Positions 7,098 through 29,134 of a stretch of DNA of 64,000 nucleotides are shown here, one piece after another. A program made the position numbers and the translations under genes. Position 1 is the first letter of the stretch; every line of letters starts with the position of its first letter. The notes below the pieces were generated by a model, which was not told where the DNA came from, did not search any database, and saw only the letters and a list, made by a program, of their open reading frames with translations. Origin of the DNA: Shinella zoogloeoides (GTDB lineage: Bacteria > Pseudomonadota > Alphaproteobacteria > Rhizobiales > Rhizobiaceae); NCBI RefSeq assembly GCF_003574625.1, contig NZ_QNUJ01000009.1, forward strand, positions 186,001-250,000, read 5' to 3'.

Positions 7098-7113
7098 TGT
7101 TTCACGTGAATCA
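7098..7113. other. parS: parS site (15/16, GANTC variant)
   Basis: TGTTTCACGTGAATCA differs from the canonical 16-mer TGTTTCACGTGAAACA by one base. It lies in the htpX/DUF1674 intergenic region, the leftmost of six such sites. The mismatch creates a GAATC (GANTC) motif. Confidence 0.85.
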
Positions 7114-7117
7114 GCGC

Positions 7118-7146
7118 TTTCCACAGCGCAGGCACGCTCCTATATG
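7118..7146 (+). promoter_or_regulatory. Possible promoter for the DUF1674 gene
   Basis: TTTCCA and TATATG hexamers are separated by 17 bp and lie about 50 bases upstream of the gene. The -10 overlaps CTATAT, a form common in rhizobial promoters. The -35 matches the consensus at only four positions. Confidence 0.3.
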
Positions 7147-7196
7147 ATGGTAAGCCAAAGGGAATTCTTCAATATCCGGGAAGGATGCCGCGTTTC

Positions 7197-7394
7197 ATGC
7201 AGAACGACAACGACAATCACACCGACGGCCGGAAGGTACTTCCTCCCGCGGCCCTCCGCGCCCTGAAGGAAGCCGAGGAACGGCGCAAGGCAACCCTGCC
7301 GGTCGAACGCGCGCCAGAGATCGGTGGACGCGGCGGCGAGGACCCCGCGCGCTTCGGCGACTGGGAGATCAAGGGCCGGGCAATTGATTTTTGA
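7197..7394 (+). CDS. DUF1674 (SDHAF4-like) small protein
   Basis: A 65-residue hydrophilic protein ending in the hallmark GGEDPARFGDWEIKGRAIDF of DUF1674. This family includes eukaryotic SDHAF4/Sdh8, which protects flavinated SdhA during succinate dehydrogenase assembly, so a role in SDH maturation is inferred by homology. Two in-frame ATGs exist 12 bases apart. GGGAAGG abuts the first with no spacing and lies about 12 nt before the second, so the second is chosen. It stands alone, divergent from htpX, far from any sdh gene in the window. Confidence 0.8.
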   Translation: MQNDNDNHTDGRKVLPPAALRALKEAEERRKATLPVERAPEIGGRGGEDPARFGDWEIKGRAIDF

Positions 7395-7445
7395 GCGCGG
7401 GAATCCGGCTCACGAACGAATGATTTTACTCCTGATCGACCCCTT

Positions 7446-7536
7446 CTCCCGTCGTGGTCGGGCTTGACCCGGCCATCTGTCGGGGCAGCGAGAATATGGA
7501 TTCTCACGTCGAGCCCGAGGATGACGGAGGAGGGGG
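7446..7536. repeat. Dispersed palindromic intergenic repeat, copy A
   Basis: A segment built from GTCGTGGTCGGGCTTGACCC on one side and GAGCCCGAGGATGACGG on the other, which pair imperfectly, with an inner inverted repeat GAGAAT/ATTCTC. Related copies occur near 37.1 kb and 51.15 kb. It fits the class of short palindromic intergenic repeats of rhizobial genomes. No coding potential is seen. Confidence 0.65.
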
Positions 7537-7570
7537 CGGAATCGGCTTCCTGCAACAACCCTCAAACGAA

Positions 7571-7593
7571 AACGGCGGCCATCGGCCGCCGTT
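7571..7593. terminator. Terminator of acs
   Basis: AACGGCGGCC and GGCCGCCGTT form a perfect 10-bp stem with an ATC loop just past the acs stop. On the minus strand it is followed by T-rich sequence. Confidence 0.75.
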
Positions 7594-7615
7594 TCGCTTG
7601 GTCTTACGGCCCGGA

Positions 7616-9571
<1,956 letters not shown>

Positions 9572-9695
9572 GGATTCCTCCCTAGACTGCGATGCGCGGG
9601 AAACCAGTCTCCTCCGGCCCCCGCCACTCCTTGAGCATACATAACAGGTCAACGCCTTCGGGCAATTAGACAAAAGGTCATTTGCGCTTGAAGAA

Positions 9696-9723
9696 TTGCA
9701 TTTCTGCGACAGTGGCGTTATAG
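9696..9723 (+). promoter_or_regulatory. Possible promoter for the TrcR-type gene
   Basis: TTGCAT and TTATAG are separated by 16 bp, about 80 bases upstream of the start, in the acs/trcR divergent region. Confidence 0.35.
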
Positions 9724-9801
9724 AGGGCCGAATTCCCGGAAAATAGTGGTTACACCCCACGGCCCGCGACACCGGCGCGGACGGACAGAAGGACTATATC
9801 C

Positions 9802-10503
9802 ATGGCTCAACAGCTGCTCATGCCGAAGGCGACCGCGGTCTGGCTGGTCGACAACACAGCGCTGTCGTTCGACCAGATCGCCACATTCTGCAAACTGCAT
9901 CCACTCGAAGTGAAGGCCATCGCCGACGGCGAATCGGCCCAGGGCATCAAGGGTCTCGACCCGATCTCGACCGGCCAGCTCTCCCGCGAGGAGATCGCCC
10001 GCGCGGAAGCCAATCCGAACCACAAGCTGAAGCTTTCCGAACCAAAGGTCCGCGTGCCGGAATCCAAGCGCAAGGGCCCGCGCTACACGCCGGTCTCCAA
10101 GCGCCAGGACCGCCCGAACGCCATTCTCTGGCTCGTGCGCAACCATCCCGAACTGAAGGATGCGCAGATCTCGCGTCTCGTCGGCACCACCAAGTCGACG
10201 ATCGAGCAGATCCGCGAACGCACCCACTGGAACTCCGCGAACCTGGCACCGATGGACCCGGTGACGCTCGGCCTCTGCTCGCAGATCGACCTCGACCTCG
10301 AAGTCGAGCGCGCCTCCAAGGGCCGCCCGCTGCCGACCGCCGCCGAACTCGGCGCGACGCTGGAATCGGCGCAGGAAACCGAAAAGCTGCCCTACAGCAC
10401 CGACCGCGAAGAGGAGAAGGAAATCGACGCCGATGCCGTCTTCGCCAAGCTCAAGTCGCTGAAGTCGTCCACGCCGGACGAGGACGAAGACGACAACTTC
10501 TGA
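9802..10503 (+). CDS. trcR: DUF1013 family cell-cycle regulator (TrcR-type)
   Basis: A 233-residue protein of the DUF1013 family, restricted to alphaproteobacteria, which databases now label as cell-cycle transcriptional regulator TrcR. It begins MAQQLLMPKATAVWLVDNT. There are two HTH-like stretches, one near 20-45 (LSFDQIATFCKLHPLEVKAI) and one near 120-145 (KDAQISRLVGTTKSTIEQIR). The tail is very acidic and ends DEDEDDNF. DNA binding is suggested by the HTH-like segments and basic middle region; the targets are unknown. It is a single-gene unit with its own terminator, convergent with prpE. Confidence 0.8.
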   Translation: MAQQLLMPKATAVWLVDNTALSFDQIATFCKLHPLEVKAIADGESAQGIKGLDPISTGQLSREEIARAEANPNHKLKLSEPKVRVPESKRKGPRYTPVSKRQDRPNAILWLVRNHPELKDAQISRLVGTTKSTIEQIRERTHWNSANLAPMDPVTLGLCSQIDLDLEVERASKGRPLPTAAELGATLESAQETEKLPYSTDREEEKEIDADAVFAKLKSLKSSTPDEDEDDNF

Positions 10504-10528
10504 GCAAGACCCGCCTTGGGATTATCGG

Positions 10529-10560
10529 AACCCGGCTGCTTAGCAGCCGGGTTTTTTGTT
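10529..10560 (+). terminator. Rho-independent terminator of the TrcR-type gene
   Basis: AACCCGGCTGC and GCAGCCGGGTT form a perfect 11-bp stem with a TTA loop, followed by a TTTTTGTT tract. This is the cleanest intrinsic terminator in the window. Confidence 0.9.
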
Positions 10561-10575
10561 GCCTCGATAGAACGA

Positions 10576-12480
10576 TCAGGCCGGGTTCGGGCTTCGGCCC
10601 GTCAGCGCTGCCGCTATCTCGTCGAGGATGGCCGGATCGTCGATCGTCGCCGGCATCTTCCATTCCTCGCCGTCGGCGATCTTCTGCATGGTGCCGCGCA
10701 GGATTTTGCCCGAGCGTGTCTTCGGCAGCCGCTTCACGCAGATCGCCGTCTTGAAGGCCGCGACCGGCCCGATGCGTTCGCGCACGAGCCGCATGACCTC
10801 CGCCTCGACCAGCGATGATTCACGTGAAACACCGCTCTTCAGGACGAGGAAGCCCGCCGGCACCTGGCCCTTCACCGCATCCGCGACGCCGATGACGGCG
10901 CATTCGGCGACGTCCGGATGGCTGGCGCAGACCTCCTCCATCGCCCCCGTCGACAGGCGATGGCCGGCGACATTGATGATATCGTCCGTGCGCGCCATCA
11001 CGAAGACATAGCCGTCGTCGTCGACATAGCCGGCATCCGCCGTCTTGTAGTAGCCGGGGAATTCCGAAAGACACGCCGCGCGAAAACGCTCGTCGGCCTT
11101 CCAGAAGGTCGGCAGGCAGCCCGGGGGGAGGGGAAGCCTGATGGCGATATTGCCGAGCGTGCCGGGCGGCACCGGATGGCCGGCATCGTCCAGCACATGC
11201 AGCTCGTAGCCCGGCATGGGCACGGTGGGCGAGCCGTGCTTCACGGGAAGCCGGCCGAGGCCGAGCGGATTGCCGACGATGGCCCAGCCCGTTTCCGTCT
11301 GCCACCAGTGATCGATGACGGGAACGCCCAGCACCTTTTCGGCCCATTGCACCGTATCCGGATCGGCCCGCTCGCCGGCAAGGAACAGCGCCCGCAGGCT
11401 GGAGAGATCATGGCGCTTCACGAGCGCGCCGTCCGGGTCCTCCTTGCGGATCGCCCGGAAGGCGGTCGGCGCGGTGAAAAGCACCGATACCCGATAGTCC
11501 TCGACGACACGCCAGAAGGCGCCGGCATCCGGCGTGCCGACCGGCTTGCCCTCATAGAGCACCGTCGTGCTGCCGTTGAGAAGCGGCGCATAGACGATGT
11601 AGGAATGCCCGACGACCCAGCCGATATCGGAAGCCGCCCAGTAGACCTCGCCGGGCTCGATCCCGTAGAGCGCGCGCATCGACCAGGCGAGGGCGACCAT
11701 GTGGCCGCCATTGTCACGGATGACACCCTTCGGCTGGCCGGTCGTGCCGGACGTATAGAGGATATAGAGCGGATCGGTCGCCTTGAGCGGAGCGCAGGGC
11801 ACCGTTTGCCCCTCGGTCGCCGCCAGCGCCGGGCCGAGGTCCACATCCCGGCCGTCCCTCAGTTCGGCCGCCAGCTCCGGCCGCTGCAGCACGAGGCAGC
11901 GCTCCGGCTTGTGCCGGGCAAGGTCGATGGCCGCGTCGAGCAGCGGCTTGTAGGCGACCACCCGGTTCGGCTCGATGCCGCAGCTTGCCGAAACGATGAG
12001 CTTCGCCGCGCAATCGTCGATGCGCGCGGCCAGCTCGCTCGCCGCGAAGCCGCCAAAGACCACCGAATGGATCGCCCCGATGCGCGCGCAGGCGAGCATG
12101 GCGAAAATCGCCTCCGGGATCATCGGCATATAGAGAATGACGCGGTCGCCCTTGACGACGCCCTGATCGGCGAGCACCGCCGCCATGGCATTCACATGGG
12201 TGAGCAGCTCGCCATAGCTGTAGCGCGCCTTCCGGCCGGTAACGGGGCTGTCATAGATCAGCGCCGGCTGGTCGCCGCGCCCGGCGGCCACGTGCCGGTC
12301 CACGCAATTGTGACAGGTATTGCCCACCGCATCGGGAAACCAGTGGCCGTAGACGCCCTGCGCGGCATCGAAGATTTCCGTCGGCTCGGTGAACCAGTCG
12401 ATGGCCCGGGCGAGCGCGGCCCAGTGGGCCTCGGGATCGTCCTGCCAGGCACGATAGATCTCGGCATAGGTCTTCTGCAT
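10576..12480 (-). CDS. prpE: Propionate-CoA ligase PrpE
   Basis: Makes propionyl-CoA from propionate and ATP. The 634-residue ANL-superfamily enzyme has TSGTTGQPKG at 243-252, WWQTETGW, and the PrpE-like start MQKTYAEIYRAW. Lys592 in KTRSGKILRG aligns with the acetylation-regulated lysine of Salmonella PrpE. The start ATG has a strong AAGGAGG at 5 nt spacing. It differs from acs in length and in the HNCVDRH segment near the N-terminus. No prpBCD genes are nearby, so it probably feeds a methylmalonyl-CoA route encoded elsewhere. A parS site is embedded in the 3' half, where it encodes VSRES. Confidence 0.9.
   Translation of the reverse strand: MQKTYAEIYRAWQDDPEAHWAALARAIDWFTEPTEIFDAAQGVYGHWFPDAVGNTCHNCVDRHVAAGRGDQPALIYDSPVTGRKARYSYGELLTHVNAMAAVLADQGVVKGDRVILYMPMIPEAIFAMLACARIGAIHSVVFGGFAASELAARIDDCAAKLIVSASCGIEPNRVVAYKPLLDAAIDLARHKPERCLVLQRPELAAELRDGRDVDLGPALAATEGQTVPCAPLKATDPLYILYTSGTTGQPKGVIRDNGGHMVALAWSMRALYGIEPGEVYWAASDIGWVVGHSYIVYAPLLNGSTTVLYEGKPVGTPDAGAFWRVVEDYRVSVLFTAPTAFRAIRKEDPDGALVKRHDLSSLRALFLAGERADPDTVQWAEKVLGVPVIDHWWQTETGWAIVGNPLGLGRLPVKHGSPTVPMPGYELHVLDDAGHPVPPGTLGNIAIRLPLPPGCLPTFWKADERFRAACLSEFPGYYKTADAGYVDDDGYVFVMARTDDIINVAGHRLSTGAMEEVCASHPDVAECAVIGVADAVKGQVPAGFLVLKSGVSRESSLVEAEVMRLVRERIGPVAAFKTAICVKRLPKTRSGKILRGTMQKIADGEEWKMPATIDDPAILDEIAAALTGRSPNPA
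10816..10831. other. parS: parS site inside prpE (15/16, GANTC variant)
   Basis: TGATTCACGTGAAACA has one mismatch to the canonical site and is the mirror form of the 7.1 kb variant. It lies within the prpE coding sequence. It contains GATTC. Confidence 0.8.
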
Positions 12481-12612
12481 CGCATCCTCCTTGCCGGCCG
12501 CCGGGCGGCCGGTTCCTCCGAAGGGAAGAATAGGAGAGGGCGACCTTTCCGCAAAGCCAGACGAAAGCCTGAGGCGGCAAACCCCGGCCTTGCCCTTCGT
12601 CAAAAGGAGGGA

Positions 12613-13272
12613 TCAGCGCGTGCCAAAAATCGCCGAGCCGACACGCACGCTGGTCGCACCGAAACCGATGGCGACCTCGTAGTCGCCGGACATGCCCATG
12701 GAAAGCTTGTCGAGATTGCACCGGCCGGCCAGCTTGGCGAGCAGGGCGAAATGCGGACCCGGATTCTCGTCGGCCGGCGGAATGCACATCAGGCCCTCGA
12801 CGGTGAGGTCGAGCTCCTCGCGGCAGAAGGTGACGAAAGCGACCGTATCGTCTGGCGCGATGCCGGCCTTCTGCGGTTCCAACCCTGTATTGACCTGGAC
12901 ATAGAGCCGCAGCGCCCGGCCCTGCCGCTTCATCTCCTCGGCGATCGCGCGGGCGATCTTCTCCCGGTCGACCGTCTCGATGACGTCGAAAAGTGCCACG
13001 GCCTCCGCCGTCTTGTTGGATTGCAGCGGGCCGATCAGGTGCAGCTCGATGCCGGCGGTCTCGGCGCGAAGTTCCGGCCACTTGCCCTGCGCTTCCTGCA
13101 CGCGGTTCTCGCCGAAGACGCGCTGACCCGCCGCGATGGCCGGGCGGATGGCCTCGGCATCGAAGGTCTTCGACACGGCCACCAGCGTCACCGCTTCCGG
13201 CTTGCGGCCCGCTTCGCTTGCGGCCTTGCCCATCCGGTTGCGAACATCTTCGAGACGATCCTGAAGGTCCAT
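12613..13272 (-). CDS. yggS: PLP homeostasis protein, YggS/PROSC family
   Basis: A 219-residue pyridoxal-phosphate-binding protein with an alanine-racemase-like TIM barrel but no racemase partner domain. It is thought to buffer PLP and affect amino-acid pools. The PLP lysine is K35 in VAVSKTF. Other family marks are FGENRVQEAQGKW, HLIGPLQSNK, LSMGMSGDYEVAIGFGATSVRVG and the end GSAIFGTR. The ATG is preceded by GGAGAG. The frame is open far upstream, but that stretch overlaps leuS on the other strand and is not coding. It is divergent from leuS and upstream of prpE. Confidence 0.93.
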   Translation of the reverse strand: MDLQDRLEDVRNRMGKAASEAGRKPEAVTLVAVSKTFDAEAIRPAIAAGQRVFGENRVQEAQGKWPELRAETAGIELHLIGPLQSNKTAEAVALFDVIETVDREKIARAIAEEMKRQGRALRLYVQVNTGLEPQKAGIAPDDTVAFVTFCREELDLTVEGLMCIPPADENPGPHFALLAKLAGRCNLDKLSMGMSGDYEVAIGFGATSVRVGSAIFGTR

Positions 13273-13446
13273 GGTCACTCTCCATCGGCTATGACGCCCC
13301 GGACCTAGCGAAATCGGCGCCGCTTGCCAAGCGCGGCCCGGAAAACTTGACGCTCCGGCGGTTTCATGATGAAGGTCTCGGCACCATATTCGCATGGGCG
13401 GATCGCCCGCCAAGACCTCCAAAAGACTCCCGGAAACATCAAAGAC

Positions 13447-16077: not shown

Positions 16078-16588
16078 CGGAACCGGTCTCTCGCGGCTCG
16101 CCAGGGTGCTCGCCGGCGTCGCCCTTGCCGGCGTGCTCGCTGGCTGCCAGGTGCGGCCGCTCTATTCCACCGCGGCGGGAACGGAAGGCAAGCTCGCCTC
16201 CGTCTCGATCTCCGAGGCGACCTCCCGCGTCGAGCAGCAGGTCCGCAACGACCTGATCTTCTTCTTCGGCGGTGGCGCGGGCGAAGCACAGAACCCGGTC
16301 TATCATCTCGAGATGGACGTCAGCATCCGCACCGTCGGCGTCCTGAACGACGCCACCCGCGACACGGCCCGCGCCGGGCGCGTGACCGTCTCGGCGGACT
16401 ATAACCTCACCAAGGCCGACACCGGGGAAACGCTCGCCTCCGGCAAGCGCTCCGCCGTCGCCATGGTCGATTTCCCGACCCAGGAATTCGCCAAGCTCCG
16501 TGCCATCCGCGATGCGGAAAATCGTGGTGCCCGGGAACTCGCCGAACTGATCCGAGCGGACGTCGCCTCGGCGCTCGCCCACCGCTGA
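16064..16588 (+). CDS. lptE: LPS-assembly lipoprotein LptE
   Basis: An outer-membrane lipoprotein partner of LptD in delivering LPS to the cell surface. The 174-residue product has a hydrophobic signal and the lipobox LAGC with the lipidated Cys at 28. The following QVRPLYS motif is typical of alphaproteobacterial LptE. The rest is a mixed alpha/beta domain of the right size. It starts within the end of leuS, with AGAGGA upstream, and is 7 bases from holA. This leuS-lptE-holA order is widely conserved and supports the call, since LptE sequences are otherwise divergent. Confidence 0.88.
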
Positions 16589-16595
16589 AACGCCG

Positions 16596-17630: not shown

Positions 17631-17645
17631 ATCCGGCTAAATAAA

Positions 17646-18536
17646 TCAGCGCCGTTCGAGAAGCCGGCAGATTTCCTCAAGCTGCTCCAGCGTCTTGTAA
17701 GCGATGCGCAGATGCCCGCCGTTGCCCTTGTGGTTCACGCTCACTTCAAGGCCCAGGACATCCGTCAGCGTGCGCTCCAGCGCAATCGTATCGGCGTCCT
17801 TCTCTTCCTTCCGCGGCGTCTGCCCATGGTTCGGATCGCCTTGCGACTTGATGTCGTTCTGGGCCAACCGCTCCGCATCACGAACGGACATGCCCTTGGC
17901 AACAACCGCCTTGGCAAGCGCAACCGGATCGGAAGTCGGAATCAACGCGCGCGCATGGCCGGCCGAAAGCGTGCCTGATGCCAGCATCTCACGCACCGGA
18001 TCCGGCAGCTTCAACAGGCGCAGGCTGTTTGCCACATGGCTGCGGCTCTTGCCGATGATCTCGCCAAGATCGTTCTGCGTATAGCCGTGATCGGCGATCA
18101 GCAGCTCGTAACCCATCGCTTCTTCAAGCGGATTGAGGTCCGAACGCTGCACGTTCTCCACGATGGCGATTTCCAGCGCCGTGCGGTCATCGACGTCACG
18201 AATGATCACCGGAATTTCGACCAACCCGGCGAGCTGCGCCGCGCGCCAGCGGCGCTCGCCGGCAATGATCTCATAGCGGCTGTCCGCCGTGGTGCGCACC
18301 ACGACCGGCTGCACGATGCCGTGCTGGCGGATCGACGAAGCGAGGTCCTGCAGCTCCGATTCGTCGAAATAGCGACGCGGATTGCGCGGGTTACGGCCGA
18401 CGAACTCGATAGGAACCAGCCGATCGGGATTGACCGCCGGCGCCGCGCCGATATCGGCGGCGGGAAGCTGGTCCATTTCACCGATCAGGGCTGCAAGGCC
18501 GCGGCCAAGGCGCCGCTTGGAGTTGTCTTCGTTCAT
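17646..18536 (-). CDS. parB: Chromosome-partitioning protein ParB
   Basis: The CTPase/DNA clamp that loads at parS and spreads to form the origin partition complex. The 296-residue protein starts MNEDNSKRRLGRGLAALIGE, the short N-terminal motif that contacts ParA. Box I, GERRWRA, is at 93-99, followed by ENVQRSDLNPLEEA, and the HTH that reads parS is near 151-176 (GYTQNDLGEIIGKSRSHVAN). The last 50 residues form the dimer domain. A GTG three codons upstream is an alternative start; the ATG fits family starts. It is 24 bases downstream of parA. All six parS-like sites in this window lie within about 11 kb of the gene. Confidence 0.97.
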   Translation of the reverse strand: MNEDNSKRRLGRGLAALIGEMDQLPAADIGAAPAVNPDRLVPIEFVGRNPRNPRRYFDESELQDLASSIRQHGIVQPVVVRTTADSRYEIIAGERRWRAAQLAGLVEIPVIIRDVDDRTALEIAIVENVQRSDLNPLEEAMGYELLIADHGYTQNDLGEIIGKSRSHVANSLRLLKLPDPVREMLASGTLSAGHARALIPTSDPVALAKAVVAKGMSVRDAERLAQNDIKSQGDPNHGQTPRKEEKDADTIALERTLTDVLGLEVSVNHKGNGGHLRIAYKTLEQLEEICRLLERR

Positions 18537-18560
18537 CGATTCCACTCACAGATACTGGTT

Positions 18561-19355
18561 TCAGGCAGCCTTGCGCTGCCTTTCCCGCTGGATCACCTCG
18601 GAGGCGAGCTGAAGATAGGCCTGGCTTCCGGCGCATTTGAGATCGTAGAGGATCGCCGGCTTGCCGTAGGAGGGCGCCTCGGAAACGCGGACATTGCGCG
18701 GAATGAGCGTGTGATAGACCTTCTCGCCGAGATGGGTACGGACGTCGTTGACCACCTGCTGCGCCAGATTGTTGCGCGAGTCGAACATGGTCAGAACGAT
18801 GCCCTGGATATCGAGGCGCGGATTGACCGTCCGGCGGACTTGGTCGACGGTCTCCAGCAACTGGCTGAGGCCTTCCAGCGCGAAGAACTCGCATTGCAGC
18901 GGCACGAGCACCGAATGGGCGGCCGCCAGGGCGTTCATCGTCAGGAGATTGAAGGACGGTGGGCAATCGACGAGCACGTAAGAGTAAGACAACGCATCGG
19001 CCGCCGCCAGCGCCCGCTTGAGCCGGAAGACCCGATCGTTGTGCTGGGCGATCTCCATTTCGATGCCGAGCAGGTCCATGGTCGAGGGAATGATCGAAAG
19101 GTTCGGCACTGCCGTTTGGAGAACGGTGTCAGCCACGCTGTGGCTGCCGATCAGCAGATCATAGGATGACAATTCGCGGCTGCGACGGTCGATTCCGAGC
19201 CCCGTGCTGGCATTTCCCTGCGGATCGAGATCGACGATGAGCACCCGCTCGCCGATTGCGGCAAGCGCGGTCGCCAGATTGATGGCAGTCGTCGTCTTGC
19301 CGACGCCGCCCTTCTGGTTCGCGATGGTAATGATCCGGTTCTTCTCGCCTATCAT
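18561..19355 (-). CDS. parA: Chromosome-partitioning ATPase ParA
   Basis: A deviant-Walker ATPase that segregates origins by a nucleoid-bound gradient stimulated by ParB. The 264-residue product has KGGVGKTT at 15-22, the Walker B region LVDCPPSF, and the switch segment VDLDPQGNAS near 41-50. The absence of an N-terminal HTH marks it as chromosomal ParA/Soj type rather than a RepA partition protein of repABC replicons. It starts 12 bases after rsmG and leads into parB, as in most bacteria. Confidence 0.97.
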   Translation of the reverse strand: MIGEKNRIITIANQKGGVGKTTTAINLATALAAIGERVLIVDLDPQGNASTGLGIDRRSRELSSYDLLIGSHSVADTVLQTAVPNLSIIPSTMDLLGIEMEIAQHNDRVFRLKRALAAADALSYSYVLVDCPPSFNLLTMNALAAAHSVLVPLQCEFFALEGLSQLLETVDQVRRTVNPRLDIQGIVLTMFDSRNNLAQQVVNDVRTHLGEKVYHTLIPRNVRVSEAPSYGKPAILYDLKCAGSQAYLQLASEVIQRERQRKAA

Positions 19356-19367
19356 GGACGCCGCCAG

Positions 19368-20003
19368 TCACTGAGGTTTGCGCGAAAGCTTGGAAAGTTC
19401 GAGCACGACCGAATCCGGCTCGACGATACTGGCGTGTTTTACCAGATCGAATCTCCACCGACCAAGCGCTTTATCGATCTCCCGCTGGTAATCCCGCCCT
19501 TTGTGCAGGAAGAACCGCAGATCCGGATTGCGCTCCGCCCAGGGAAAACCGAATTCCATCAGCAGATCGAGATCCGCCAGGGCACGGGCGGAGATGGCAT
19601 CGCAGCGTTCGATCGCCGCCGGTGCTTCCTCGATTCGAATCGCGTGGACGGACGCGCGCGCACCGGTTTCCAGAATGGCGGTCCTCAGAAAAGCAGCCTT
19701 CTTGTTGTTGCTCTCCACGAGATGAACCCATCCATCGCCTTCACCCGCCAGCAAAATACCCGTGACGATGCCCGGAAAGCCGCCACCGCTGCCGAGATCG
19801 ACCCACTGGCGCGGCCCGGGAGAGAGGGCGTAGATTTGTACACTGTCGATGATATGCCGGTTCCACGCCTCGGACAGGGTCGACGGCGCCACCAGATTGA
19901 TGGCCTTTGCCCATTTCTTGAAAAGCGCAACAAAGCTGTGCAGCCTGTCCACAGTTTCACGTGAAACATTCAGGCCACTCAATTCGCGAGGCAGGGTATT
20001 CAT
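19368..20003 (-). CDS. rsmG: 16S rRNA m7G527 methyltransferase RsmG (GidB)
   Basis: Methylates N7 of G527 in 16S rRNA with SAM; loss often gives low-level streptomycin resistance. The 211-residue enzyme has the SAM loop [11 protein letters not shown] at 68-78 and the family segment [12 protein letters not shown]. The ATG overlaps the mnmG stop as ATGA, which fixes the start despite a longer open frame. A parS site lies inside the coding sequence and encodes N12-V-S-R-E-T17, so this peptide is constrained at the DNA level too. Confidence 0.95.
19953..19968. other. parS: parS site inside rsmG (15/16)
   Basis: AGTTTCACGTGAAACA has one mismatch, at the outermost base. It is about 0.6 kb upstream of parA within the rsmG coding region. 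Unlike the other imperfect copies it does not create GANTC. Confidence 0.85.
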
Positions 20004-21889
20004 GCGTTTGCAGTCCGGTTCATTGCTTCGGCGGGAAGACGCTTGAGATAGGCAAGCAACAGCGTCAAAGCTGCCGGTGTCATGCCGTCGACCCGCGCCG
20101 CCTGTGCCAGATTCGCCGGACGTGCCGCGGTCAGCTTCTGCCGCAGCTCCATGGAAAGTCCGGGTAGGGCGCTGAAATCGAAGTGATCGGGAATCCGCCG
20201 CTCTTCCTCGCGCCGTGCCTCGGCAATATCCGTCTCCTGCCGGTTCATATAGACGGCATAGCCGGCCTCGATCTCGATAGCGTCCCGAACACGCGCAGAA
20301 AAAACATTCAGTTCCTCGGACCAAACAGCCGCAAGGCGCGCATAGTCTATATCGGGATAGGCCAGCAGATCATAGGCACTGCGGCGCACGCCGTCCTGGT
20401 TGATGCGGATGCCATGAGAAGCAGCTTCGTTGGGCGAAAGTCGGAGGTTACGGAGGCGATCTCGCGCCGCATCCATCTCGGCCGACCACGTAGCAAACCT
20501 TTCCTCACGTGCGGCCCGTACAAGACCGAGATCGATGCCAAGGGGTGTAAGACGAACATCCGCATTGTCCGCCCTGAGGGAAAGACGATATTCCGCGCGC
20601 GATGTGAACATCCGGTAAGGCTCGGTCACGCCCCGCGACGTGAGGTCATCGATCATCACGCCGATATAGCTGTCGGTTCGGCTGAAGATGTGGCCCTCGG
20701 CACCAGCAGCGCGGCGCGCCGCATTGAGGCCGGCAACGAGACCTTGCGCTGCGGCCTCCTCATAACCCGTCGTGCCGTTGATCTGGCCCGCCAGGAAAAG
20801 GCCCGGCTGCCGCTTCACTTCCAGGGTCGCCGACAATTCGCGAGGGTCGACATGGTCGTATTCGATCGCATATCCCGGCTGAAGAATGATCACGCGCTCA
20901 AGGCCGGGAATGGTCCGGATGAAGGCATCCTGCACATCCGCGGGAAGCGAGGTCGAAATGCCGTTGGGATAGACCGTATCGTCATCCAGCCCTTCCGGCT
21001 CCAGAAAGATCTGGTGCCCGTCACGCTCGCCGAACTTGACGATCTTGTCCTCGATCGACGGGCAGTAGCGGGGGCCGACACCCTCGATCTGCCCCGAATA
21101 CATGGCGGATTTACCGATATTCTCTTCAATGATCCGGTGCGTTGCCGGCGTCGTCCGCGTTACCCCGCAGTCGATCTGCGGGGTCGTGATACGATCCGTC
21201 ATGAAGGAAAAGGGAACGGGATCCTCATCCGCTGCCTGTCGCCCGATAGAATTCCAATCAATCGTGCGGCCGTCCAGACGAGCTGGCGTGCCGGTCTTCA
21301 GGCGCCCGAGCGCGAGGCCCAGCCGCTCGAAGGTGGCCGAAAGACCCAGGGAGGGATCTTCGCCAACACGACCTGCCGGAATCTTTTCGTTTCCGATATG
21401 AATGAGACCCCTGAGGAACGTACCGGTCGTAATAATGACCGAGCGGCACATCACGCGGCGCCCATCCTTCATGATCACAGCCGACACCTGACCATTCACC
21501 AAATCGAGATCGAAGGCATCGCCCTCGATGACATCGAGATTGGGGATAGCTGCGATCTCGGCCTGTATTGCCTCGCGATAGAGCTTTCGGTCGGCCTGCG
21601 TTCGCGGTCCGCGCACAGCCGGACCCTTTCGCCGGTTCAAGAGGCGAAACTGGATACCGGCGCGATCGGCAACGCGGCCCATGAGCCCGTCCAGCGCATC
21701 GACTTCGCGAACCAGATGACCTTTACCCAAGCCGCCGATTGCGGGATTGCAGGACATGACCCCAATGGTCGACGCCTTGTGCGTCACCAAGGCGGTTCTT
21801 GCTCCCAGACGAGCCGAGGCGGAAGCAGCCTCGACGCCGGCATGACCGCCACCGACAACGACGACGTCGTAATTGCTGGTCTCTTTCAT
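20000..21889 (-). CDS. mnmG: tRNA uridine-34 modification enzyme MnmG (GidA)
   Basis: The FAD-dependent partner of MnmE in forming carboxymethylaminomethyl-uridine at the wobble position. The 629-residue product has the dinucleotide fold [11 protein letters not shown] at 10-20, then [35 protein letters not shown] and the C-terminal helical MnmE-binding domain. The ATG of MKETSNYD is preceded by GGTGG and is preferred over an upstream in-frame codon, because the intervening bases are a perfect parS that encodes FVSRET only by chance. It sits between mnmE and rsmG. Confidence 0.96.
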
Positions 21890-21901
21890 ATACCACCTAC
21901 C

Positions 21902-21917
21902 TGTTTCACGTGAAACA
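21902..21917. other. parS: parS site (perfect 16/16)
   Basis: TGTTTCACGTGAAACA is the exact canonical palindromic ParB site. It lies in the short mnmE/mnmG gap, 26 bases from a second parS, making a tandem pair. Confidence 0.95.
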
Positions 21918-21943
21918 AACCACGCGACTCGCACACGTTGCAT

Positions 21944-21959
21944 TGTTTCACGTGAATCA
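21944..21959. other. parS: parS site at the end of mnmE (15/16, GANTC variant)
   Basis: TGTTTCACGTGAATCA has one mismatch. Read on the minus strand it begins TGA, which is the stop codon of mnmE. It pairs with the perfect site 26 bases away. Confidence 0.88.
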
Positions 21960-23282
21960 TTTGCCTATGCAGAATTCCGAGAAGATCACGTCAAGCAAAT
22001 CCTCGACATCAACTCGGCCTGTCACCCTTCCCAGCGCCTGGCCCGCCAATCGCAAGTGTTCGGCTTGAATATCCAGACCTGTATCCATCATCGAAAGCGC
22101 CGATGCAATCTCGGCGCAAGCCGCCTGCAAATTCTCCAGATGTCGCCGGCGGGTCGGAAGCGCCAAGGAAGATCCCGCTTCGAGATCGGGGAGATATCGG
22201 CTGATCGCATCCAGCAATTCTGACATGCCCACGCCGGTCTGAACAGAGATCGTAGCATCCACAGCGCCATCGGGCCAAGTCGCTGTTGTCTTGTCCGCCT
22301 TCGTGTGAACGCGAATGACCGGGCCGCGATAGGTACCAAGCCAGCTCGCCCAATCGCTCGTCGGCATATCCGACAGCAGGAGGACGAGATGCGCCTCTTC
22401 CATGGAAAGACGTGTCCGTCGGATTCCTTCCCGCTCGACGATATCCTCGGTCTCGCGCAGGCCGGCCGTATCATAAAGCCGAACGGCAAAGCCGGAAAGA
22501 TCGAGATCGATATGCAGAATGTCACGGGTCGTACCGGGAATATCCGTAACGATAGCGACGTCGCGCTTGGCCAGATGGTTCAGCAGGCTCGATTTGCCGG
22601 CATTCGGCGGACCGGCAATGACCACCTTGAGGCCGTCGCGCACGATTTCGCCGGCGCGGGCCGAACCCAGATGGTTAATAATCTCTTTCTCCAAAATCCG
22701 CATATCCGCCCAGATCGACGATGCGACAGAGCCCGGTACATCCTCCTCATCGGCAAAATCGAGCTCCGCTTCGATCATCGCCCGCGCATGCGTCAACCGT
22801 TTCGCCCACGAATCGTAAAGCCGGGAGAGACCGCCGGATGCATGTTCGGCGGCCAGACGGCGCTGCATCTCGGTCTCGGCTGCGATCAGGTCGGCCAATC
22901 CCTCCACCTCGACCAGATCCATCCGCCCATTCTCGAAAGCCCGTCTGGAAAACTCGCCCGCCTCCGCGCCGCGCAATCCCTGAAGTTCGCCCAGAGAGTT
23001 CAGCACGGCTTTTACAGTGGCATGGCCGCCATGAATCTGCAGCTCGGCGCAGTCTTCACCGGTGAAAGAATTCGGACCGGGAAAAAAGAGAATGATTCCG
23101 TCATCCAGTTTCTCACCGTTGCGATCCCGAATCGAAAGCAGGGAGGCGCGGCGAGGGGATGGAACGTGACCGCACAGGCTCGTGACAGCGTTGCGCGCTT
23201 CCGGGCCGCTTATACGGATGATCGCGACGCCGGAAGGCAATCCGCCGCTGGAAAGCGCAAAGATCGTATCTGCAACGCGCAT
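21957..23282 (-). CDS. mnmE: tRNA modification GTPase MnmE (TrmE)
   Basis: A potassium-activated GTPase that works with MnmG on tRNA wobble uridine. The 441-residue protein has an N-terminal tetrahydrofolate-binding domain starting DTIFALSSG, a helical domain, the inserted G domain with G1 GPPNAGKSS at 224-232, TDIPGTTRD (switch), DTAGLRET (G3), and the C-terminal FCIGK with the conserved cysteine. The G4 motif is TKAD. The start is the ATG of MRVADTIF, with a weak GGAA upstream. It is 126 bases downstream of rho. Its stop codon is part of a parS site. Confidence 0.96.
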
Positions 23283-23355
23283 GGCATGAACATTCCGGAT
23301 GCGAATCGAAGAGGTTCGTTACGGATAAGAATCGATTCTGGGTCTTCAAACGAAA

Positions 23356-23381
23356 ATGGCCCCGTCTTGCGACGGGACCAT
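23356..23381 (-). terminator. Terminator of rho
   Basis: ATGGTCCCGTC and GACGGGGCCAT (minus strand) pair over 11 bases with one wobble and a 4-base loop, followed by TTTCGTTT. It lies just past the rho stop. Confidence 0.75.
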
Positions 23382-23408
23382 GGCTGTCTTTGCCAAGGCG
23401 AGCCTCGA

Positions 23409-24674
23409 TCAGGTGTTCATCGAGTCGAAGAAATCGCCGTTGTTCTTGGTCTGCTTCAGCTTGTCGATCAGGAACTCGATCGCATCGGTCGTTCCCATCG
23501 GGGCTAGGATACGGCGCAGGACGAAGATCTTCTGCAGGTCCTGGCGCGGCACAAGGAGGTCCTCCTTGCGCGTGCCGGACTTGAGGATGTCCATCGCCGG
23601 GAAGATGCGCTTGTCGGCGACCTTGCGGTCGAGCACGATTTCCGAGTTGCCGGTGCCCTTGAACTCTTCGAAGATCACTTCGTCCATGCGGCTGCCGGTA
23701 TCGATGAGCGCGGTCGCGATGATCGTCAGCGAGCCGCCTTCCTCGATGTTGCGGGCGGCGCCGAAGAAGCGCTTCGGGCGCTGCAACGCGTTGGCGTCGA
23801 CACCGCCGGTCAGGACCTTGCCCGAAGACGGAACGACCGTGTTGTAGGCGCGGCCGAGGCGGGTGATGGAATCGAGCAGGATGACCACGTCGCGGCCATG
23901 CTCGACGAGGCGCTTGGCCTTCTCGATGACCATTTCGGCGACCTGGACGTGGCGCGTCGCCGGCTCGTCGAAGGTCGAGGAAACCACTTCGCCCTTCACC
24001 GAGCGCTGCATGTCCGTCACTTCTTCCGGACGCTCGTCGATCAGCAGGACGATGAGATAACATTCCGGATGGTTCGCGGTGATCGAATGGGCGATGTTCT
24101 GCAGGAGAACCGTCTTACCCGTGCGCGGCGGCGCGACGATCAGGGCGCGCTGGCCCTTGCCGAGCGGCGCCACCAGGTCGATGACGCGGGGCGAAAGGTC
24201 CTTCGAGGTCGGGATTTCGAGTTCCATCTTGAAGCGCTCGTTGGGATAGAGCGGCGTCAGGTTGTCGAAATGGACCTTGTGGCGGATCTTTTCCGGATCG
24301 TCGAAATTGATCGTGTTGACCTTGAGGAGGGCGAAATAGCGCTCGCCTTCCTTGGGGCCGCGGATCGGGCCTTCGACGGTATCGCCGGTCTTCAGCGAGA
24401 AGCGGCGGATCTGCGAGGGCGAGATGTAGATATCGTCCGGGCCGGGCAGGTAGTTGGCGTTCGCCGAGCGCAGGAAGCCGAAGCCGTCCTGCAGCACTTC
24501 CACGACGCCTTCGCCGATGATCTCGACGTCCTGCGAGGCCAGCATCTTGAGGATGGCAAACATGAGCTCCTGCTTGCGCATCGTGCTCGCGTTCTCGACC
24601 TCGAGTGATTCGGCAAAGGCGAGGAGGTCGGTCGGAGTCTTGTTCTTGAGGTCTTGTAGCTTCATTTCGGCCAT
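23409..24674 (-). CDS. rho: Transcription termination factor Rho
   Basis: The hexameric RNA helicase that ends transcription at C-rich unstructured RNA. The 421-residue product has the N-terminal helical region ([19 protein letters not shown]), a cold-shock-like RNA-binding domain with DGFGFLRS (63-70) and [18 protein letters not shown], Walker A APPRTGKT at 181-188, and Walker [11 protein letters not shown]. The start is the ATG of MAEMKLQ, though the ATG three codons later is nearly as good; no clear ribosome site is seen. A 186-base leader separates it from hemJ. Confidence 0.97.
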
Positions 24675-24860
24675 GAATGGTCCATGCTGCAGGTCATCGG
24701 GATGGGAAAAGGCGTGCGGGTCAGGGACGAACTGCGCGGGGTCTGGTGCAGCTCACTGAACGAATACACATGCCACGAAAGATGAGATGCGCGGAAAATA
24801 GCGGTTCCGGTGCCGGCCCGCAAGGGGGCGATTCAATTTCGTCCGATTTGTCGCGGCCGA

Positions 24861-25400
24861 TCAGAACGGCTTGACCACGACCATGATGACGATGAGGACC
24901 ATCAGGAGGGCCGGCGCCTCGTTCCAGACGCGCCATTGCCGCCCGGTTTTCACGTTGCGATCTTCCGCGAAAGCCTTCACCGCGCGGCCGTAATATTCGT
25001 GCACGCCGGTGAGAAGAACGACGAAGGCGAGCTTGGCATGCAGCCAGCCGCCCTGGAAACCGTAGACCGACCAGGCAAGGTAGAGGCCGAGCAGCCAGGA
25101 AAGGCCCATGGCAGGCTGCATGATGGTCCGGTAGAGCCGTCCTTCCATCACCTTGAAGGTCTCCGACTGGGCGGAACCCACCGGCGCATCGGTGTGATAG
25201 ACGAAGAGCCGCGGCAGATAAAGCAGTCCCGCCATCCAGGACATCACGGCGACGATGTGCAGCGCCTTGATCCAGAGATAGAGATCCTCCGGCGGATGGA
25301 GGACGAGGAGGAGCGCCACCAGCGCGAAGACGGCGAGTGCCACCGCGGCCCGCAAACGGGCGCGGCGTCCGGCGCTCTCGCTGGTCTGCCGCTCGCTCAT
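24861..25400 (-). CDS. hemJ: Protoporphyrinogen oxidase HemJ
   Basis: An inner-membrane enzyme that oxidises protoporphyrinogen IX late in haem synthesis, used by most alphaproteobacteria in place of HemG/HemY. The 179-residue product has about four to five transmembrane helices, with the conserved [20 protein letters not shown] and LPRLFVYH stretches holding the histidines thought to bind haem b, and HAKL plus HEYYGR further on. The ATG overlaps the hemE stop as ATGA, which fixes the start and indicates coupled translation. Confidence 0.92.
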
Positions 25401-26452
25401 CGCGCTTGCCCGCGCACGCGTGCCACGAGCCGCGTGACGTTTTCGGGATCGGCCTGCGGCGTGATGCCGTGGCCGAGATTGAAGATCAGCGGGCCATTGC
25501 CGAGCGCCTGCAGGATGGCGTCGACCCCTTCGTCGAGCGCAGCGCCGCCGGCGACCACGCGCATCGGATCGAGATTGCCCTGCACCGGCCCGTCCTTCTG
25601 CAGTTCGGCCGCGAAGGACAGCGGCACCGACCAGTCGAGGCCGATCGCATCCGCCCGCGTCTCCTGCCGGTAGGTCATGAGCTGAAGGCCGGCCCCCTTG
25701 GCGAAGGCGATGATCTTCGCCTGGGGCCTGCGCGAGCGCACCGCATCGACGATGCGCCGCATCGGACGAACGGCGTAATCGGCAAATTCCTTCTCGCCGA
25801 GCACGCCCGCCCAAGAATCGAAGATCTGCACCGCATCTGCGCCCGCATCGATCTGCGCCACGAGATAATCGGCCGAAAGATCGGCCAGGAGGTCAAGGAG
25901 ACGGGCGAAGGCCTTCGGCTCCCGGTAGGCGAAAAGCCGAGCCGGCGCCTGGTCGGGCGTTCCATGGCCGGCAATCATGTAGGTCGCAACCGTCCAGGGC
26001 GCTCCACAGAAGCCGAGCAGGGCCGTTTCCTCGGGGAGGGCCTGCCGGATGCGGCCAACCGCTTCCAGGACGGGCCTGAGGTGATCCTGAACGCCTTCTT
26101 CCTTCAGAGCGAAGATGGCATCGGCGTCGATCGGGTCCATGCGCGGCCCATGGCCTTCCTCGAAGCGGACATTGCGCTTCAGGGCATCGGGGATGACGAG
26201 GATGTCGGAAAACAGGATCGCCGCATCGAAGGCATAGCGGCGGATCGGCTGGAGCGTGACTTCCGTCGCCAGATCCGGCGAATAACAGAGATCGAGGAAA
26301 CTTCCCGCCTCCGCGCGCGTTGCCCGGTATTCCGGCAGGTAACGGCCTGCCTGGCGCATCAGCCAGAGAGGAGGAGGGGAGACCGTCTTCCCGTTCAGGA
26401 CTTCGACGATCTTCCGGCTTTTCGCAGACACCGCTGGGGTTCTCCCAATCAT
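25397..26452 (-). CDS. hemE: Uroporphyrinogen decarboxylase
   Basis: Decarboxylates uroporphyrinogen III to coproporphyrinogen III. The 351-residue TIM-barrel enzyme has the substrate-binding RQAGRYLP at 33-40, the signature [13 protein letters not shown], and the aspartate in CYSPDLA. AGAGA lies upstream of the ATG. The gene forms a two-gene unit with hemJ and borders the candidate origin, reading away from it. The hemE-origin link is classical for alphaproteobacteria such as Caulobacter and Rickettsia. Confidence 0.97.
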
Positions 26453-26664
26453 GAAATAATCTCTTTTGAAAAGGTTTCTATTTCTTAGAGTCGGTGACTA
26501 TCAAGGATTAAATCCTGTCCACAAAATCCCCGTCCCGACGCTGAACGGTTGGAAAACACAAAGTTCGCGAAAGCTTTTACGGCGCAAATCCGGCAAATCC
26601 GGATTCGCGCTTTTGAATCAAAGGGATTCGAGAGGCGCCTGAAAGTCCCTTCCTGTGGGCAGCT

Positions 26665-26673
26665 TGTGGACAA
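26665..26673 (-). promoter_or_regulatory. DnaA-box-like site
   Basis: TTGTCCACA on the minus strand is one mismatch from the TTATCCACA consensus, within the candidate oriC. Confidence 0.6.
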
Positions 26674-26701
26674 GCGCGACACTATGACGTGGCCATGAGT
26701 C

Positions 26702-26710
26702 TTGTCCACA
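26702..26710 (+). promoter_or_regulatory. DnaA-box-like site
   Basis: TTGTCCACA is one mismatch from the consensus and is in opposite orientation to the box 28 bases to its left. Confidence 0.6.
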
Positions 26711-26744
26711 GCATCGGGGAATCCGTTTCCCGCTGTTCGCCGAT

Positions 26745-26753
26745 TGTGGAAAA
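26745..26753 (-). promoter_or_regulatory. DnaA-box-like site
   Basis: TTTTCCACA on the minus strand fits the relaxed TTWTNCACA form of the DnaA box. Confidence 0.55.
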
Positions 26754-26838
26754 ACCGGCACTTATCCTCTTGCCTCCGTGCCCCTCCCGTTTTTAGCTCA
26801 CGCTTGTCCCGGTTCATCAACAGGGGCCGGAGGATATT

Positions 26839-27660
26839 GTGGAAAGCACCAAAAACTACTTTCATCTGCACCTCATTTCGGACTCGACGGGCGAGACTCT
26901 CATTGCTGCCGGGCGGGCTGCCGCGGCACAGTTCCAGTCTTCCCAGGCGCTGGAGCACGTCTATCCCCTGGTGCGCAATCGCAAGCAGCTGATGCCGGTG
27001 CTCGATGCCATCGATGGGGCGCCGGGCATCGTGCTCTATACAGTCGTCGACCGGGAATTGTCGGAGATCATCGACCAGCGCTGCCGGGAAATGGGGGTGC
27101 CCTGCGTTTCCGTGCTGGAGCCGGTGATCGAAATCTTCCAGTCCTATCTCGGCGCGCCCTCGCGTCGGCGGGTGGGGGCGCAGCATGTGATGAACGCGGA
27201 ATATTTCGCGCGCATCGAGGCGCTGAATTTCACCATGGACCATGATGACGGCCAGTTGCCGGCCGATCTCGACGAGGCGGATGTCATCCTTATCGGCATC
27301 AGCCGCACCTCGAAGACGCCGACCAGCATCTATCTCGCCAATCGCGGCATCAAGACCGCCAATGTGCCCATCGTCCTCGGCGTGCCGCTGCCGGAACGGC
27401 TGTCGGCGGCGACGAAGCCGCTGATCGTCGGCCTCATCGCCACGACCGACCGCATCGCCCAGGTCAGGCAGAACCGGATATTGGGCCAGACACAGGAGTT
27501 TCGCGGCGACGACTATATCGATAGGGCGCAGATTTCCGAGGAGCTGAAATATGCCCGCGCCATCTGCGCGCGTAACAACTGGCCGGTGATCGACGTCACC
27601 CGCCGCTCGATCGAGGAAACGGCCGCCGCCATCGTTGCTCTTCGCCCCAAGCTCCGTTAA
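26839..27660 (+). CDS. ppsR: PEP synthase/PPDK regulatory kinase-phosphorylase (DUF299)
   Basis: A bifunctional ADP-dependent kinase and Pi-dependent phosphorylase family that switches pyruvate phosphate dikinase or PEP synthase off and on. The 273-residue product has the P-loop-like [11 protein letters not shown] at 153-163 and the starting motif [13 protein letters not shown]. Whether the partner is PpdK or PpsA cannot be told, and no such gene is in the window. The start is GTG with CCGGAGGATATT before it; the GTG overlaps a weak DnaA-box-like sequence. This is the gene called RP001 in Rickettsia, the classical right-hand neighbour of the alphaproteobacterial origin. Confidence 0.9.
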
Positions 27661-27684
27661 CCCGGAAGGCAACAGGAGATTTTC

Positions 27685-28284
27685 ATGACGCCGCCGCTGA
27701 TCCTTGCCTCGCAAAGCCCCTTCCGCCGCATGCTGATGGAAAATGCCGGTCTTGCCTTCGAAGCGCGCGCGGCGGAGATCGACGAGCGCGCGGCCGAAGC
27801 GGCGCTCGCCGCGCGCAATCCCACCCCGCCGGACGTTGCTGAGGCGTTGGCGATCGAGAAGGCGAAGGACGTGGCAGGCCGCAATCCGGGCGCACTCGTC
27901 ATCGGTTCGGACCAGACCCTCTCGCTCGAGGGCCGGGTCTTCCACAAGCCCGCCGACATGGCGGAAGCGAAATCCCACCTCATGGCGATGTCGGGCCGCA
28001 CCCATGCCCTGAACTGCGGCATCGCGCTGGTGCGCGACGGTGAAACCCTCTGGACCCACGTCTCCATCGCGCGGCTGACGATGCGGCCGCTTTCGGAAGG
28101 GTTCATCGACCGGCATCTTGCCCGCGTCGGCACGCGCGTTCTCGCCAGCGTCGGCGCCTATCAGTTGGAGGGGGAGGGCGTGCAGCTCTTCGAGCGGATA
28201 GACGGCGACTATTTCACCATTCTCGGCCTGCCGCTTCTTCCGCTGCTGGCTAAACTTCGCGATCTCGGTGCCATCGATGGATGA
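27685..28284 (+). CDS. maf: Maf family nucleoside triphosphate pyrophosphatase
   Basis: A house-cleaning pyrophosphatase that hydrolyses non-canonical or modified NTPs. The 199-residue protein has the family start [14 protein letters not shown] with the SxSxxR loop, the catalytic aspartate D76 in IGSDQTL, and [20 protein letters not shown] near the end. The exact substrate subfamily (dTTP/UTP versus m7GTP) is not settled by eye. AGGAGA precedes the ATG. It runs 24 bases after ppsR. Its TGA stop is the first three bases of a parS site. Confidence 0.9.
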
Positions 28285-29134
28285 TTCACGTGAAACATCC
28301 GCCCGCCATGCCTTCGTCACCGGCTATCCGGTCAAGCATTCGCGTTCGCCACTGATCCATGGCCACTGGCTGGAAAAGCTGGGGCTTGCGGGATCCTATA
28401 CGCGGCAGGAGGTTTCCCCCGAAGATTTCGCCGGCTTCATTTCCCGCCTGAAGAGCGGTGAATCCGGCTTCGTCGGCGGCAATGTCACCATCCCCCACAA
28501 GGAAACGGCCTACGGGCTGGCCGACCGGCCGGATGCGCTCAGCGAGGAGCTCGGCGCGTCGAACACCCTCTGGCTGGAAGATGGTCGGCTTTGCGCCACC
28601 AATACCGACGGCTACGGCTTCCTCGCCAATCTCGATGCGGCGGCGCCCGGCTGGAACCGGACGGATCGCGCCGTGATCCTCGGGGCGGGGGGCGCGAGCC
28701 GCGCGATCATCCAGGCCGTGCGCGACCGCGGCGTCGGCGAGATCCATGTGGTGAACCGCACCGTCGCCCGCGCGCAGGAACTGGCCGACCGCTTCGGGCC
28801 GAAGGTGCATGCCCATGGCATGGAAGCCCTTGCCGAAGTCAAAAAGGGGGCCGGCCTCTTCGTCAACACCACCTCGCTCGGTATGGACGGCGAGGCGGCG
28901 CCGGACTTCGATTTCTCGCCGCTCGCAAGCGATGCGGTGGTTACGGATATCGTCTATGTGCCGCTGGTGACGCCGATCCTTCGCCAGGCGTCCGCGCAGG
29001 GCTTTGCCACGGTCGATGGCCTCGGCATGCTCCTGCATCAGGCAGTGCCCGGTTTCGAAAAATGGTTCGGCGTCCGGCCCACGGTCGATGCCGCGCTACG
29101 TAACCTCATCCTCGCGGACATGGAGACACATTGA
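28277..29134 (+). CDS. aroE: Shikimate dehydrogenase
   Basis: Reduces 3-dehydroshikimate with NADPH in aromatic amino-acid synthesis. The 285-residue enzyme has the shikimate-binding SRSP at 22-25, catalytic K75 in VTIPHKE, the NADP loop GAGGAS at 136-141, and VNRT for phosphate contact. I use the ATG of MDDSRET; a GTG three codons upstream is possible. The start overlaps the maf end by 8 bases. A parS site spans the junction and encodes DDSRET at the very N-terminus. Confidence 0.93.
28282..28297. other. parS: parS site at the maf/aroE junction (15/16, GANTC variant)
   Basis: TGATTCACGTGAAACA, one mismatch. Its first three bases are the maf stop codon and the rest encodes the AroE N-terminus. 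It is the only parS found to the right of the candidate oriC in this window. Confidence 0.85.

Follow-up and report, generated by a model that had tools for sequence, protein, structure and literature searches.

The loading of ParB at parS sites, its clamping and sliding on DNA, and the movement driven by ParA are established for ParB families. Here we describe a putative parS array in a 64,000-nucleotide stretch of the Shinella zoogloeoides genome (contig NZ_QNUJ01000009.1, positions 186,001 to 250,000), which is called the window and whose coordinates are used throughout. The closest described cluster is that of Caulobacter crescentus, with seven putative sites (PMC5815017). It shares with the Shinella array a 16-bp palindrome, an origin-proximal position, sites lying in genes that are essential or costly to lose, and a second half (GTGAAA) that is more conserved than the first. 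The two differ in extent: in Caulobacter the five strongest sites span no more than 5 kb, whereas the Shinella array has six sites in 21 kb and one 42.5 kb further on. The GANTC motif, a target of the cell-cycle DNA methylase CcrM and central to the present analysis, is absent from the main text of PMC5815017. Agrobacterium tumefaciens ParB1/parS1, from the same family, has a consensus that is said in PMC9239152 to equal B. subtilis parS, and the named Agrobacterium loci compared here share the one-arm GANTC sites found at the ends of mnmE and maf. GANTC also occurs close to partition loci and origins in repABC replicons of the same class (PMC11514494, PMC9040568), and PMC11514494 argues for a role of methylation in repABC function. 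As reported there, the motifs occupy promoters, repC or the repB-repC gap, or stand some 500 bp away from parS, whereas in Shinella they lie inside the chromosomal parS 16-mer. GANTC and parS were likewise found at one locus in Caulobacter, where methylation was measured (PMC5172544); unlike in Shinella, the text consulted in that paper does not place GANTC inside the ParB site, and it reports a methylation state unchanged with constitutive methylases.

Six 16-mers in the window match a 16-bp palindrome close to TGTTTCACGTGAAACA, the chromosomal parS of the ParB1 class:

7098 to 7113, minus strand: parS, asymmetric form (TGATTCACGTGAAACA on the minus strand); GANTC at 7108-7112; no gene identified over the site
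10816 to 10831, plus strand: asymmetric parS with GANTC at 10817-10821; located within a gene resembling acetyl-CoA synthetase (10576-12603, minus strand)
19953 to 19968, no strand assigned: parS differing at one end base and lacking GANTC; within the 5' portion of the rsmG frame
21902 to 21917, no strand assigned: parS, perfect palindrome; probably in the mnmG 5' leader
21944 to 21959, minus strand: asymmetric parS with GANTC at 21954-21958; its TGA doubles as the stop codon of mnmE (protein end FCIGK)
28282 to 28297, plus strand: asymmetric parS with GANTC at 28283-28287; its TGA doubles as the stop codon of maf; in the start of an aroE-like frame

The original prediction had read these 16-mers as an origin-proximal centromere. 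Their coordinates and mismatches were reproduced (21902 exact, the other five with 1 mismatch each), as was the gap of 26 bases within the tandem pair (21917 to 21944). If the gap separating hemE from the Kinase-PPPase gene (26453-26838) is regarded as oriC, the candidate origin of replication, it has five sites to its left and one to its right. When up to 3 mismatches were allowed, the window contained these six sites only, compared with 0.06 expected, and none of 100 shuffles gave six. The same six, all within 21 kb, were the only matches at up to 1 mismatch in the whole assembly (5,375,062 bases, 27 contigs); a uniform expectation for 5.375 Mb is 0.06, and the probability of at least six is about 7e-11. 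At up to 2 mismatches the assembly held seven places, namely the six sites and one 2-mismatch site, and a reversed-pattern control gave one (at two mismatches). The whole-genome scan therefore finds a tight cluster here and excludes, for this assembly, an equal density of such 16-mers far from parAB. Scans of the window with Rfam (gathering threshold) and for tRNAs gave no matches. The clustering, the setting beside parAB and the oriC candidate, and the conservation described below support the predicted centromere array, and the six sites are very probably the chromosome-segregation (centromere) sites of this Shinella sp.

Four of the five 1-mismatch sites carry the same asymmetric sequence, TGATTCACGTGAAACA, in either orientation. 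These four, together with a distal site at 70808, contain TGATTCACGTGAAAC, in which T at base 3 is changed to A, and hence GATTC, a GANTC motif. GANTC is thus present inside four of the six sites and in the one at 70808. The array is mixed, with symmetric parS beside one-arm GANTC sites (in Rhizobiaceae mostly TGA[T/C]TCACGTGAAACA). We hold with high confidence that this is a parS array with an order-specific asymmetric form. Such an array is a known kind of element, and the asymmetric one-arm GANTC form is a variant for which no description was found in the literature searched: among the matches listed, no title or opening of an abstract described GANTC inside a chromosomal parS, and neither TGATTCACGTGAAACA nor TGTTTCACGTGAATCA was printed there as an unbroken string. 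The centromere is very probably ordinary in function, with an order-wide variant.

Genome-wide counts were used to assess how widespread the one-arm form is. The names of class, order and family were deduced from named relatives, and 'outside the class' stands for the kinship label 'same phylum'; the counts 60/17/1/1 (151 genomes), 129/14/2 (order), and 7/3 and 0/2 (phylum sample) were made by hand, and the per-genome counts of the Shinella, class and Rhizobiaceae scans are complete. In Rhizobiaceae the core GATTCACGTGAAAC, with a GATTC arm, was found at 327 sites in 125 of 151 genomes; the same core with C (17 sites) or G (7 sites) at base 3 was found at 24, in 19 of these genomes. GATTC in both arms occurred once, in one of the 151 genomes, and GA[C/T]TC in both arms in none of the 244 records scanned. 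This near absence suggests that the change costs ParB something, yet it is kept. A further scan, with 79 matches in 46 of the 151 genomes, gave GACTC (two changes, GANTC kept) 60 times, GTCTC (one change, no GANTC) 17 times, and GAGTC and GTGTC once each. The order sample of 130 genomes gave 129 A and 16 C or G at base 3 (14 and 2; reversed control 3), and in a phylum sample of 200 the 149 genomes outside the class gave 7 A and 3 C or G (control 1).

Arms were also tallied in 80 named loci, the close ParB relatives that made up the best 80 of 91 and whose counts are non-independent. In these, a search with free ends, a central ACGT and no more than 2 core mismatches gave 286 parS-like sites, with arms GTTTC 410 times, GATTC 135, GTCCC 12, GACTC 8, and a few others. 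From the order sample 100 of 145 sites were fetched (43 genomes, mostly one per genus, chosen for holding a match), to which 10 sites from outside the class and a single one from another order were added. Of the fetched order sites, 90 had an A arm and the 10 others C or G. A-arm and symmetric sites in the fetched regions stood at 45 to 13, a ratio biased by the choice of regions that hold a match. On the genome counts of the family, order and phylum samples, the one-arm form is typical of this order.

Conservation within Shinella was assessed site by site. At up to 1 mismatch, 16 of 20 Shinella genomes (own included) had six sites, two had five (G005, G015) and two had four (G002, G004); in G002 and G004 the 7098 site is present with an end base changed. 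Among eight chosen Shinella loci, six had the identical 7098 16-mer, the other two had an end base changed, and all eight kept the GANTC arm. The 10816 16-mer was present in 13 of 13 named Shinella loci, and 12 of 13 aligned rows matched; in locus L057 (S. daejeonensis) it stands at +6124 instead of about +7750, outside the sole synthetase-like stretch found there. Across these 13 loci, 15 of 16 bases were invariant at 19953, where the odd base is an end base, and at 21902, where the last base differs from the window in all 13; all 16 were invariant at 21944 and 28282. Mean identity of the cores ranged from 0.94 to 1.00, compared with flank means of 0.69-0.84 (10816, 19953, 21902, 21944, 28282 and 70808). 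End bases of the other sites drift, and the A of the asymmetric arm is invariant in the Shinella loci compared that have asymmetric sites.

The 2-mismatch match, TGATTCACGTGAAACC, is a seventh site outside the window, at G000:C27:256808 (window coordinate 70808). It lies 3' of a phosphoenolpyruvate-carboxykinase-like gene, named from its sequence, and overlaps a hairpin that resembles a terminator. All 21 Shinella genomes searched have a match to the 616 bp around it, and the 16-mer is identical in 20 of the 21 (own included). This site stretches the array to about 64 kb and adds one more to the right of the oriC candidate.

The partition genes lie within the array:

17646 to 18545, minus strand: parB; Pfam ParB_N, HTH_ParB and ParB_C; PDB match 6t1f
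18561 to 19355, minus strand: parA; Pfam AAA_31, E 1.2e-61

The best match of this ParB among solved structures is Caulobacter ParB (6t1f, E 6e-72), and the protein keeps the residues through which Caulobacter ParB is described as contacting DNA, Q162, G170, K171, S172, R173, N178, G201 and R204 (Caulobacter numbering, mapped on the 6t1f alignment). ParB from the 13 loci named Shinella is 87-94% identical to that of the window. Of the 79 ParB motifs found in 130 records, 77 have K or R at residue 184. K or R at this position is called permissive in PMC7383237, which also describes the matching Noc lysine as contacting the backbone at thymine 2 (base 3 here). The genome has four further ParB_N matches, at G000:C27:17777 (on parB's contig), C4:8628, C12:525697 and C4:95819 (L042-L045).

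The genome encodes one PF01555 methylase, of 376 amino acids, with N6_N4_Mtase and RAMA domains over their cut-offs and a near full-length match to CcrM (NF050803, E 1.8e-190). The window holds 103 GANTC motifs compared with 205 expected from base composition, and under-representation of GANTC in the class is the subject of a section heading of PMC3973325. In A. tumefaciens the methylation signal at GANTC near ori1 is described as lower than near a terminus, which fits long hemi-methylation (PMC11514494). A mechanism that joins these elements can be proposed. ParB dimers with bound cytidine triphosphate would load at the sites, close into clamps and slide into the flanks, to be moved by ParA. 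ParB would tolerate the changed arm, perhaps through residue K184, and the change would be kept since one CcrM target then sits inside the site. parS would pass from fully to hemi-methylated early in replication and return late in the cycle. A CcrM site in one arm would explain why one arm is changed and not two, and why a transversion prevails over a transition; it would also leave base 4 unconstrained, something at which the 60 to 17 count hints. ParB loading, parS methylation and an effect of methylation on ParB are what we infer from sequence. Selection of the arm through CcrM specifically is a tentative reading, to which we give somewhat less than an even chance. That the centromere of the Hyphomicrobiales is epigenetically timed, with a one-arm CcrM site in many parS sites tying ParB loading to replication-linked hemi-methylation, or with ParB shielding the site from CcrM, so that newly replicated centromeres would stay marked for most of S phase, is doubtful.

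Other explanations of the sites and of their asymmetric arm were weighed. That the 16-mers are chance or coding coincidences and no parS is extremely improbable. The site at 10816 does lie inside a gene, that at 19953 is in a reading frame, and two others overlap gene ends, but six sites were observed in the genome where 0.06 were expected, so chance does not account for them. Their conservation also exceeds the flank means, and TGTTTCACGTGAATCA in S. daejeonensis occurs away from the one synthetase-like stretch detected at that locus. A narrower proposal is that the A is kept because TGA is the stop codon of a gene ending in parS. A parS-like site opens with the three bases of the mnmE stop in 49 of 81 loci, and with those of the maf stop in all 65 loci holding that site (80 examined). 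However, none of the sites at 7098, 10816 and 70808 coincides with the stop of a recognised gene. The 90 A arms of the order sample (43 genomes) divide into 13 whose TGA closes a run of 100 or more open codons and 77 without such a stop; 38 of the 77 begin with TGA, and 39 begin otherwise yet hold GATTC. Counted by genome, a non-stop A arm is present in 32 of 43 and a C/G site in 10 of 43. Four loci (L088, L099, L116 and L120) keep TGA[C/T]TC though the mnmE stop lies 5, 6, 5 and 12 bases upstream. Because 77 of 90 arms are not at a stop and three Shinella sites lack one, stop-codon overlap is insufficient as a general cause and was rejected as such; we consider it unlikely to be why the A is kept.

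A more serious alternative is that ParB of this order prefers or tolerates A in one arm, followed by C at the position after it, and that GANTC is a by-product without a methylation function. The permissive residue 184 could explain such tolerance, and the preponderance of A over C and G outside the class, 7 to 3, is in its favor. A symmetric dimer preferring A should nevertheless yield two-arm sites, which were found in one of the 151 genomes (in a scan for GATTC/GATTC) and in none of the 244 records. T to A is a transversion, yet it outnumbers T to C by 327 to 17 in Rhizobiaceae, and GACTC exceeds GTCTC, a comparison in which the symmetric sites of those genomes are uncounted. Loci L199 and L200 have T184 yet possess the arm, and L123 has K184 and no arm; K184 as the sole cause of tolerance fails on these loci and was dropped. 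We place the ParB preference just short of an even chance, and it and selection through CcrM are left nearly equal.

Several points weigh against a conserved array whose order-specific arm is maintained for CcrM. All arm counts across genomes are uncorrected for phylogeny. A outnumbers C and G outside the class too, although on few sites, and other orders of the class gave 0 A and 2 C in 24 genomes, and one of their genomes (G291) stands among the matches listed in a scan of the class. PMC3973325 and PMC11514494 describe CcrM as conserved across most Alphaproteobacteria, yet these other orders seem to be without the arm. The CcrM candidate scores 632 bits, below the NCBIfam curated cut-off of 830. 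Depletion or overexpression of CcrM in A. tumefaciens is reported to have affected ori2, and duplication or partitioning of ori1 not noticeably (PMC11514494). The 12 GTCCC arms likewise carry C at base 4 and speak against a base 4 that is freer in A arms only. The stop codon is a good partial cause at 21944 and 28282 and would alone hold the A there. As regards conservation, 12 and 13 of 301 other 16-mers in a 316-bp stretch are as conserved as those at 10816 and 21902, respectively. The complete site listing of G005 contains no counterpart of 7098, and this genome is also without the distal site, the best 16-mer of that stretch having 7 mismatches.

The remaining features of the array region are as follows:

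19368 to 20324, minus strand: rsmG (gidB); start codon uncertain
20000 to 21943, minus strand: mnmG (gidA); true start probably at 21889, judging from the reading frame's sequence
21957 to 23282, minus strand: mnmE; stop codon shared with parS 21944
27685 to 28284, plus strand: maf; stop codon shared with parS 28282
26453 to 26838, no strand assigned: candidate oriC in the hemE/Kinase-PPPase gap; DnaA-box-like TTGTCCACA (2) and TTTTCCACA (1); 6 GANTC

The assignment of this gap as oriC is based on the analogy to Caulobacter oriC on its hemE side. Its 6 GANTC motifs in 386 bp amount to about 10 times the mean density of the window. The genes around the sites include leuS, lptE, holA, parB, parA, rsmG, mnmG, mnmE, rho, hemJ-like, hemE, Kinase-PPPase, maf, aroE, coaE and dnaQ-like; several of these short names are those that we assume for their Pfam families. 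A gene for the cell-cycle regulator TrcR (Pfam PF06242, 9802-10503) also lies within the array.

Two regularities of the array were considered and dropped. Helical phasing of the tandem pair does not hold, as the spacing differs among relatives (42, 44, 45, 40 and 51 among others). Nor does the GANTC arm consistently point towards oriC: in Shinella four of five arms face oriC and 10816 is opposite, and other loci are mixed. A further GANTC (GACTC, 21926-21930) lies between the tandem sites, an interval in which many Shinella and Pararhizobium-type loci share a GCGAGTC-like block; this GACTC/GCGAGTC-like block is possibly a CcrM-linked promoter of an mnmG-rsmG-parAB operon.

Sites in the synthetase-like gene vary among relatives. 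Pararhizobium-type loci (L059 at 17787, related loci similar) have TGTTTCCCGTGAAACA in that gene where Shinella has the 10816 site, possibly a gain or loss of parS within a coding region. Loci L102, L103 and L105-L114 have TGTTTCACGTGGGACA at about +7230 from parB. This was considered as a decayed 10816 copy in an Agrobacterium synthetase-like gene and rejected, as no such gene was found in L102, L103, L108 and L114. At up to 1 mismatch most of the 289 genomes scanned had fewer than 8 parS-like sites, and two small genomes of the class, G272 and G124, had 136 and 36.

ParABS and CcrM both couple replication to segregation and the cell cycle in these bacteria, and the two were not joined inside a chromosomal parS in the literature searched. 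If CcrM targets are built into the centromere, they would form a direct link between these two systems. Even if GANTC is a by-product, an order-wide one-arm parS tests how a symmetric ParB clamp acts on an asymmetric site. Scans for parS in rhizobia should include the one-arm variant.

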